Assembly: GCA_010015675.1 (NCBI GenBank)
Contig: ML977001.1
Coordinates: 246,263 to 310,262, forward strand
Direction: 5' to 3'
Source of the DNA: Byssothecium circinans
Lineage: Eukaryota; Ascomycota; Dothideomycetes; Pleosporales; Massarinaceae
DNA length: 64,000 nucleotides
Shown here piece after piece: positions 7,181 to 8,845 of the stretch. A program made the translations under genes and the position numbers. Numbering within the stretch: position 1 is the stretch's first letter; each line of letters begins with the position of its first letter. The notes beneath the pieces are model-generated. The model was not told where the DNA came from, did no database searches, and worked only from the letters and a program-made list of their open reading frames with translations.

Positions 7181-8268
7181 TGGGCTAGAGAGGATGAGGT
7201 TGGAAGAGGACGAGTGGGAGAGCGAAGATTCCTCATAATAATGGATGCATTGGGTGGCGTTTTGGGCGGTGCAATATGGATATCAGATGTGGTCTATAAA
7301 AGGCGTTAACAAGTATAGTGGCATGCACCAACAAGCTTCAAAATGATTAGATTCTCAAAAACAGCGGTCGTTCCAGAAGGTTGAGGCTTTTACATCGAGG
7401 GTGTTGTATTAGGCTCACACCCTTTGGCATTTTCCACCACAACTGTGTAGTTTGCCTCCCGCTGTGCAGAGATCACGGGCCGTGGATGTAGCCGCACAGC
7501 ATCCTAGTCCAGGGGTGCGTGATAAGTGAAGACTCAGCCAGCGTTTTCTTGCTTATTGATATTCCAATTGCTGATTTTCGTGACAACTGGATGCACAATC
7601 GAGGTGAGATCTGGCAGTAAACGTGATGCAGGTTGTGAGATTAACCCAACCCTTAGCCCGTTTTACGAACTCTGTAACGAACTTTTGAAAGCACTAGAAG
7701 CGCTTTTCAGGGCTTCAATGGATACCGGTATGCCTAGTGCAGTGATCCCTTATTGATTTATATATTCCTCTGAAAAGAACCGCAATGCGCAATATTCCCT
7801 TCTGATCATAAGGTCTGCTCGACACTGACGAACAGCTACACAAAAAATGCGCTCCACTGTCAACAACTACAGCCAAAGTTCTTTACAAGAACTTGCATCC
7901 GCTTTCCCAGCTTGCAATAACATCTTTCGTTAAGATACTTCAAGCAGAACTAAGCATGCATGGATGAGCATCTCTCCCTTCCCGAAACACAAGAAAAGCA
8001 CGCAAAGTATTGCTTGGATTTATATACAACAAAGGAGCATTATTTAAGAATAAGAAAGCAAAGAAGCATCAAACAACGCATACCAAGAAAAAACCGATCT
8101 TCCCATCCAGTCACACCTAGCGTCCCACAACCCAAGCTCCCCTAAATAAGGTAGTAACCAGTAACCTCCCCCCACCGCCCAATCAATCCATCCCAAAGCT
8201 CCACAGCCCCTCCCTTTAGTCTTCTATCCCCCTCCCCCCTCCCACACACCCATTTCCAATAATTAACC
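7181..8268. other. Intergenic, no protein gene seen
   Basis: About 1.1 kb downstream of RRS1 and upstream of the tRNA gene. The 76-codon frame at 7526 with a signal-peptide-like start begins with GTG, not ATG. The 61-codon ATG frame at 7960 has no recognisable features. The stretch is pyrimidine-rich toward 8150-8260. Confidence 0.5.
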
Positions 8269-8269
8269 T

Positions 8270-8278
8270 TATATATAA
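8270..8278 (+). promoter_or_regulatory. TATA-like element upstream of tRNA-Gln
   Basis: TATATATAA-type run (within ttatatataaac, 8269-8280) ending about 39 nt before the first tRNA base. Upstream TATA boxes assist TFIIIB placement at Pol III genes in several fungi. It could matter more than usual here because the internal B box is interrupted. Function is inferred from position only. Confidence 0.45.
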
Positions 8279-8353
8279 ACTATTTAATCCACGAAAAGCA
8301 ACAAAATTGCAGCAAAGGTTGTGTAGTGTAGCGGTTATCACTCCGGATTCTGA

Positions 8354-8372
8354 TTTGCCTCTTTTCAGAGTC
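8354..8372 (+). other. Canonical tRNA intron (anticodon loop)
   Basis: Nineteen-nucleotide insert directly 3' of tRNA position 37, the universal site of eukaryotic tRNA introns. It contains CAGA, complementary to the anticodon region TCTG, which would give the usual anticodon-intron helix recognised by tRNA splicing endonuclease. Confidence 0.85.
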
Positions 8373-8391
8373 TTCCGGCAACCCCGGTTCG

Positions 8392-8464
8392 GTAAGTTTT
8401 AACGTAGCTGCGAGCGGCGGTTCGAGCTGTAAATGTGTCCCACAATAGCTGACTATTGTGACAG
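8392..8464 (+). other. Spliceosomal-type intron inside the tRNA T-loop
   Basis: Seventy-three nucleotides beginning GTAAGT and ending ACAG, with the branch consensus GCTGAC 12 nt before the end. Removing exactly this segment regenerates the B box GGTTCGATTCC and a perfect T-arm. The 3' part is a perfect 8-bp hairpin (8441-8448 with 8453-8460) whose four-base loop CTGA contains the presumed branch adenosine. A B-box-like string GGTTCGAGC lies inside the insert at 8419. The splicing machinery is inferred from the signals alone. Confidence 0.7.
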
Positions 8465-8496
8465 ATTCCGGGCACGACCTCAAGGGTTAAGCTATC

Positions 8497-8519
8497 TTTT
8501 TGTAGGCTTTTTTTTTTTT
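8497..8519 (+). terminator. RNA polymerase III terminator (T5 then T12)
   Basis: A run of five T (8497-8501) begins 17 nt after the discriminator base, and a run of twelve T (8508-8519) follows. Both are sufficient for Pol III termination, supporting Pol III transcription across the interrupted tRNA gene. Confidence 0.8.
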
Positions 8520-8520
8520 G

Positions 8521-8845
8521 GAGGGAGGAGGAGGGGCGATGGTGGGATGGGGGTGACGTGTGTAGTCAGGGGTAGGTAAGCGACGGAGAACATTGTATTT
8601 TCCCCCTCTTTTTGCTTTGCATGGTGGGCGGGAGCTTAACTTTGATATTTGTGCTTTTAAGCGTCTGGGCGGAGTATGTGGTGATTTTTGTATTTTTTTA
8701 ATAGGTGTGATTTTTACGTCGCGCGGTACACTGACTGCGTCAACCGATCCAATTCTTCATCCAATCCCCAAATCTCATGAAATCATTCTAGAACTTATGA
8801 TACATTCATAATACAGACAATCAACAACATCTCCCATCATCCACC
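8521..8845. other. Intergenic, no gene seen
   Basis: Spacer between the tRNA terminator and the 3' end of the minus-strand SDR gene; G-rich at first, then T-rich. No feature recognised. Confidence 0.5.

Follow-up and report, generated by a model that had tools for sequence, protein, structure and literature searches.

The window analyzed here is a stretch of 64,000 nucleotides (G000:C25:246263-310262) from a host assembly of 48.4 Mb in 109 contigs. On its forward strand lies a tRNA-Gln(CUG) gene, downstream of an RRS1 gene whose top named-protein matches come from Massarina eburnea (82%, with 89% of the query covered) and Lentithecium fluviatile (73%). Because these are the best matches of RRS1, the host is placed in the Pleosporales near both species. 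Exact-pattern scans of viral contigs and of genome contigs for relatives of the locus returned no match. The gene and its surroundings are laid out as follows, in window coordinates.

8270..8279, forward strand: TATA-like element TATATATAAA, 38-47 nt upstream of the tRNA
8317-8480, forward strand: tRNA-Gln(CUG) gene, in five pieces, read directly
8317..8353, forward strand: tRNA-Gln(CUG) exon, positions 1-37
8324..8334, forward strand: A box TAGTGTAGCGG
8354..8372, forward strand: canonical tRNA intron of 19 nt, after position 37, read directly
8373..8391, forward strand: tRNA-Gln(CUG) exon, positions 38-57
8392..8464, forward strand: putative U2-type (GT-AG) intron of 73 nt, between T-loop G57 and A58
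8392..8397, forward strand: predicted 5' splice site GTAAGT
8419..8429, forward strand: B-box-like sequence GGTTCGAGCTG inside the 73-nt intron, which splits the gene's own B box, GGTTCG/ATTCC
8441..8460, forward strand: perfect 8-bp hairpin CACAATAG-CTGA-CTATTGTG, with the branch-site bases CTGA, including the branch A, as its loop
8448..8453, forward strand: predicted branch site GCTGAC, branch A at 8452, 12 nt from the intron end
8461..8464, forward strand: predicted 3' splice site ACAG
8465..8480, forward strand: tRNA-Gln(CUG) exon, positions 58-73
8497..8519, forward strand: T5 and T12 runs, resembling a Pol III terminator

The acceptor stem, GGTTGTG/CACGACC, is paired at 7/7 positions with one G-U, and a 4-nt stretch of the 19-nt intron pairs with the anticodon loop at 4/4. 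Taking out the 73-nt insert leaves the T-arm CCCGG-TTCGATT-CCGGG and, with the paired acceptor stem, a full tRNA. The fold of the insert itself is unremarkable (z -1.3). ARAGORN, and Rfam at gathering scores, report no tRNA in the unspliced window, and Rfam with a permissive threshold returns two weak lncRNA matches at the locus and nothing else.

Among all possible GT..AG removals 38-120 nt long in the region 8151-8560, one alone gave a tRNA, Gln(CTG), namely that of 8392-8464; when GC donors are also permitted, ARAGORN takes one additional removal, of 39 nt. With no splice-site rule at all, in a test of excisions of 48-98 nt that start in the first 80 positions of the gene after prior removal of the 19-nt intron, 8392-8464 alone tops the scores, in two equivalent registers of which one is GT..AG. 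The chance control used overlapping 411-nt chunks on both strands (510 planned, the five over the tRNA-Gln(CUG) locus skipped), and its 127,904 GT/GC..AG removals elsewhere in the window yielded 0 tRNAs. The earlier note had described, in a tRNA-Gln(CUG) gene, an intron of 19 nt after position 37 and a T-loop insert of 73 nt marked by GTAAGT, GCTGAC and ACAG, removal of the insert restoring the T-arm and a paired acceptor stem. Direct reading, the unique GT..AG removal and the control confirm this description. Internal duplication was rejected as the origin of this intron, its likeness to its own flanks being within that of shuffles.

The same genome holds one tRNA-Gln(CUG) gene that is uninterrupted and differs in its body (L012, C31:375432-375517, reverse strand), and the idea that the window gene is the sole tRNA-Gln(CUG) was accordingly rejected. 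Because L012 exists, the window copy need not work and may be dispensable.

Introns of mRNA type occur 20 times in the genome, in 19 tRNA genes and at about ten sites of the tRNA; this recurrence, with the same signals each time but for the exceptions given below, is directly observed. By tally, 55 tRNA genes were identified, 19 with an mRNA-type intron and 36 without, in an inventory that is incomplete (Met, Phe, Tyr, Trp, Val(AAC) and Val(UAC) genes are without confident identification) and in which L047, L071/L105, L094, L095, L099/L149, L124 and L125 are not counted as tRNAs. The introns are distributed over the tRNA as follows.

Site 57/58 (G57/A58): Gln-CUG, Lys-UUU and one Lys-CUU
Site 52/53: two Lys-CUU, His and two Asn
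Site 50/51: Thr-UGU
Site 18/19: Thr-AGU, Arg-CCG and Arg-UCU, the Arg-UCU intron being GC-AG
Site 26/27: second mRNA-type intron of Arg-UCU
Other D-loop sites: Arg-CCU, Val-CAC and Ala-CGC
Site 3/4: Pro-CGG and Thr-CGU
Site 4/5: Arg-ACG
Variable arm: Ser-GCU

The set was drawn from all 50 tRNA matches of the genome search and then from the loci of GGTTCGANTCC, GGTTCGANCCC and GGTTCAANTCC. For GGTTCGANTCC, 100 sites with 75 new loci gave four tRNA calls seen only after splicing, one of which was accepted (L104); for GGTTCGANCCC, 50 sites with 40 loci gave three such calls, all accepted; and for GGTTCAANTCC, 63 of 66 sites were covered, with 60 loci and one call, also accepted. Spliced-only ARAGORN calls at L055, L062, L121 and L124 were rejected by eye, as they offered no credible mature tRNA or donor.

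A genome-wide pattern for a GT-AG intron in the T-loop returned five matches at four places, as many as the five of the reversed control, but at two of these places lie weak tRNA matches of the genome search that proved to be tRNA-Lys(UUU) and tRNA-Lys(CUU) genes with the intron at G57/A58. The pattern required +5 G, +6 T and CTRAC, and a difference of one base in spacing kept it from matching the intron of the window gene. Two of the three T-loop introns, both in Lys genes, thus came from a pattern containing motifs that were counted afterwards.

BLAST-type searches with the spliced sequences found interrupted genes for Asn in 2/2 cases, for Lys(CUU) in 3/3 and for Lys(UUU) in 1/1. The direct outcome is that no uninterrupted Lys or Asn gene was found by these searches, and none was recognized among the 50 tRNA matches. 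Uninterrupted copies do exist for His (L003), Thr-AGU (L005) and Arg-ACG (L018). As Lys and Asn tRNAs are indispensable, either removal of the introns takes place, or the searches overlooked intact copies or the assembly lacks them. Two pairs of paralogs show no difference in exon 2 and differ in exon 1 solely inside the canonical intron; identity is 70% and 61% for their mRNA-type introns and 48-60% for the flanks. Conservation of exon over intron is thus seen directly in these pairs, and is consistent with exons that are kept and introns that drift save for donor, branch and acceptor.

Several further loci of the collection may be described here. The tRNA-Arg(UCU) gene L165 (G000:C18:86739-87149, reverse strand) appears to have three introns, a GC-AG intron in the D-loop, a GT-AG intron at 26/27 and, after position 37, a canonical intron; this reading was made by eye, and ARAGORN gives a different isotype. 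L071 and L105 are similar genes with a sound acceptor stem (GCCAGCG..CGCTGGC), D-arm and T-arm and an unreadable anticodon region, and are perhaps further split tRNAs. L049-L051, L056, L057, L059 and L060 are scattered tRNA-like repeats (GGTGGGATGGCTCAGTGGTAGAGTGCTGCAGCC...) whose 3' tails are related, and are probably tRNA-derived SINEs; L055, a more distant tRNA-like sequence, resembles them and was rejected as a split tRNA. In the tRNA-like genes L031 and L048, possibly tRNA-derived elements, ARAGORN reads a 4-base anticodon (tcac).

Splice signals were counted across the whole set. Nineteen of the 20 introns have G at +5 (shuffled mean 3.0; 0/20,000 shuffles reach 19), and 19 of 20 have a CTRAY whose A lies 8-13 nt from the intron end, at 9-12 nt as observed (shuffled mean 0.67; 0/20,000). 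The 3' end is CAG or TAG in 20/20, AG being a search condition; because GT/GC and AG ends were conditions of the search, they are not counted as evidence. Leaving out the two Lys loci that were found by motif, both +5 G and CTRAY stand at 17/18. The exceptions are the Arg-ACG intron, which is without a CTRAY site, and the Arg-CCU intron, which is without +5 G in the register chosen and would have it in a GC-AG register. The tRNA introns are 48-73 nt long, and their lengths and commonest donors resemble those of ten candidate mRNA introns in coding genes of the window, which are mostly 45-57 nt with a branch-to-end distance of 9-13 nt in 9/10. Because those ten were picked by +5 G, CTRAY and the joining of open frames, only their lengths and branch distances are informative. 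Pairs of the two motifs are not commoner across the whole window than in its reversed sequence (53 vs 72), with a distance of 10 standing out (13 vs 6). By its donor, branch and acceptor, the 73-nt insert is filed as a putative U2-type spliceosomal intron.

Individual calls and boundaries differ in how firmly they are placed. Excision produces an ARAGORN tRNA in 19/19 genes and the expected isotype in 15/19; the remaining four (L046, L104, L165 and L178) were assigned by eye from the anticodon loop. Five of the 19 genes yield an ARAGORN tRNA call even unspliced, with the wrong isotype in four of the five. At most sibling loci ARAGORN also accepts alternative removals, and the sibling boundaries therefore rest on structure together with motif. 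When structure alone was used to score the excisions of 15 introns, nine had a single best product that a GT..AG cut can yield: the window gene, the three Lys-CUU genes, Lys-UUU, His, Thr-UGU, Thr-CGU and Arg-ACG. For the two Asn genes, Thr-AGU, Arg-CCG, Arg-CCU and Val-CAC, other excisions score equal or better. Most of these six lie in the D-loop, where many cuts fold equally well and where structure leaves several boundaries free.

On these sequence features, we consider it highly likely that the tRNA-Gln(CUG) gene of the window is a working Pol III gene and that its 73-nt insert is a spliceosomal intron of U2 type. Points against this include the uninterrupted L012 and the position of the branch A of the window intron, in the loop of the 8-bp hairpin. 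A rival explanation is that the window copy is a pseudogene carrying an intron-like insertion, the intact L012 doing the work of a CUG gene. The worry had been raised by the earlier note in calling for other tRNA-Gln(CUG) copies, and it is borne out in part, for one uninterrupted copy was indeed found, but the window copy is undecayed: its acceptor and T stems pair, its 37/38 intron pairs with the anticodon loop, and a terminator and a TATA element are in place. Sibling introns, moreover, occupy genes for which no uninterrupted copy was found. The pseudogene is thus an unlikely explanation. A spliceosomal-type intron, as the earlier note proposed, is favored over a pseudogene insertion because of the recurrence in 19 genes, the U2-type donor and branch motifs, the absence of a strict bulge-helix-bulge in 18 introns and the failure of the searches to find an uninterrupted Lys or Asn gene.

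Alternatively, the inserts could be archaeal-type non-canonical tRNA introns, of the kind known from Crenarchaeota, Cyanidioschyzon merolae and nucleomorphs, cut by the tRNA-splicing endonuclease, with GT..AG ends that are incidental. The sites have parallels, as a section of PMC4090602 places archaeal introns at the non-canonical positions 3/4, 20/21, 25/26, 53/54 and 56/57 and reports D- and T-arm introns in nucleomorphs, and many nucleomorph tRNA introns are without a defined bulge-helix-bulge according to a passage of PMC3978253. The endonuclease is presumably present, since canonical introns are common in this genome; four of eight checked pair with the anticodon loop at 4/4, the others at 2 or 3. 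Yet a bulge-helix-bulge of the strict form, with a complete 4-bp central helix and 3-bp outer helices, was found in 0/18 introns tested, and the junction pairing of these 18 totals 71 against 65 expected from shuffles, in a test modelled on the strict form as distinct from the relaxed hBH and HBh' forms. Moreover, +5 G and a CTRAY at 9-12 nt, each in 19/20 introns, are of no known use to the endonuclease. We regard endonuclease cleavage of the inserts as very improbable.

That the inserts are copies of a recently scattered mobile introner-like element, a kind reported for fungi (van der Burgt et al. 2012), is hardly credible: the Arg-CCG intron is an 85% copy (41/48) of its own 5' flank, but no second genomic copy of the window intron was found (search counts being lower bounds), a single pair among the first 18 introns compared all against all (Lys-CUU-c/Asn-GUU-b) reached even the weak score of 14 in a comparison made without a shuffle control, and none of the 18 except Arg-CCG beat its 200 shuffles in likeness to its own flanks, so that the many near-identical copies and strong cross-gene likeness of such elements are not seen. 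The Arg-CCG case is a separate observation: in L086 (G000:C8:948658-949068, reverse strand), the D-loop intron matches the stretch just upstream of the gene, and a copied 5' flank is a possible route of intron gain there.

If the spliceosomal reading is right, the genes must be transcribed with their introns in place, and the promoter and terminator signals bear on this. A TATAWA is present within 90 nt upstream in 14/19 intron-bearing genes, the window gene included, at distances of 15-73 nt. T runs of at least five occur inside 0/19 genes and within 40 nt downstream of 19/19. Unspliced, 18 of the 19 genes contain an A box, the exception being Arg-CCU, and all 19 contain a B-box core. For introns at site 18/19, the donor G replaces G19 and completes the A box; for those at 52/53, the acceptor G replaces G52 and completes the B box. 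All three introns at 57/58 carry GTTCRA (1/20,000 shuffles), two of them in the form GTTCGAATC, and GTTCRA is found in 5/20 tRNA introns overall (7/20,000 shuffles), the two beyond the T-loop being the T-stem introns of Thr-UGU and His. In the intron-borne B box of the window gene, the GGTTCGA core alone matches, and the last bases, GCTG, are off consensus. These arrangements suggest that the Pol III boxes stay usable in the unspliced intron-bearing genes.

The U6 gene of this genome, L196 (G000:C14:277621-277720, forward strand), was also located. It is the one full-length U6 match, of 100 nt, with two partial U6-like copies within 1.4 kb, and is intron-free; a TATA element precedes it, and GTTCGAATC follows its T run. 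Yeast SNR6 is arranged in a like manner.

For the window gene, the following course of events may be proposed. The TATA-like element and the internal boxes would recruit Pol III, with transcription beginning some 40 nt past the TATA-like element. TFIIIC would bind the A box and the intron-borne B-box copy, the use of the latter being proposed since the gene's own B box is interrupted by the intron. Pol III would stop at the T runs, leaving a primary transcript that retains both introns. The spliceosome would take out 8392-8464 by way of GTAAGT, GCTGAC and ACAG. Removal of the 19-nt intron would fall to the tRNA endonuclease and ligase. The T-loop intron is probably removed first, because it would hinder folding of the tRNA. 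We infer all three elements of this scheme, Pol III transcription, spliceosomal removal and the order of the two reactions, from the arrangement of signals.

More generally, the mRNA-type introns in tRNA genes are probably removed, and the making of tRNA in this fungus probably needs the spliceosome besides the usual tRNA-splicing enzymes. Taken as a whole, it is likely that about a third of the identified tRNA genes yield their product by way of the spliceosome; that all Lys and Asn isoacceptors, and probably several single-gene Arg, Thr, Pro, Val, Ala and Ser isoacceptors, depend on it; that Pol III precursors cross two unrelated splicing systems; and that intron positions have been shaped so that a donor G, an acceptor G or an intron-borne B box preserves the internal promoter.

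Textbooks separate tRNA splicing, by endonuclease and ligase, from mRNA splicing, by the spliceosome. If the reading is true, essential tRNAs as substrates of the spliceosome would break this divide and couple translation to spliceosome activity, U2-type splicing would be seen to work on many short Pol III transcripts, and the genome would offer about twenty natural tests of intron entry into genes with internal promoters. Annotation of eukaryotic tRNAs may miss intron-bearing genes of this type; the description of tRNAscan-SE 2.0 in a section of PMC8450103 gives its non-canonical intron search for archaeal mode. In the full-text literature searched, to which most subscription papers do not belong, we found no report of spliceosomal introns in nuclear tRNA genes; the earlier note had likewise known of no nuclear tRNA with a GT-AG intron in its T-loop. 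Words beginning with spliceosom- are absent from the main text of the tRNA reviews PMC4090602 and PMC4033280, and tRNA splicing is placed among the spliceosome-independent kinds in a portion of a 2026 review (PMC13149111). The insert would thus be a known kind of intron in a class of gene for which we found no record of such introns.

Each known system compared resembles the present one in part. Canonical eukaryotic tRNA introns are matched by the 19-nt intron of the window gene, which fits position 37/38, and not by the 73-nt intron, which follows position 57. Non-canonical tRNA introns are described for archaea, Cyanidioschyzon merolae (C. merolae) and nucleomorphs in sections of PMC4090602, and for archaea in a portion of PMC4033280. 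Like those here, they lie in acceptor, D and T arms, may number several per gene and occur alongside the 37/38 intron (parts of PMC4090602); unlike them, they are recognized by structure, the bulge-helix-bulge and its relatives, with no GT..branch..AG described, and the strict form of that structure is missing from the introns tested here. Ascomycete nuclear rDNA has spliceosomal introns (a passage of PMC11889510, citing Cubero 2000 and Bhattacharya 2000), which share with the present ones GT-AG ends and a non-coding RNA gene as host, but that host is an rRNA and not a tRNA with an internal promoter. A passage of PMC5832005 describes spliceosomal introns in fungal U3 and U6 genes and names U3 and U6 as the sole small structured RNAs in which introns were so far known to be frequent. 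The U3 snoRNA introns likewise interrupt a small structured RNA and are ordinary spliceosomal introns, although almost all of them lie in one 5' stem-loop, whereas the tRNA introns here occupy about ten sites. U6 genes with mRNA-type introns, in Schizosaccharomyces and other fungi, differ in having an snRNA and not a tRNA as host, and the U6 of the present genome is uninterrupted; they agree in that a gene transcribed by Pol III carries an intron of U2 type. The fission-yeast U6 intron is reported to carry a match to the B box (Frendewey et al. 1990), as do the three T-loop introns, and would be their closest precedent.
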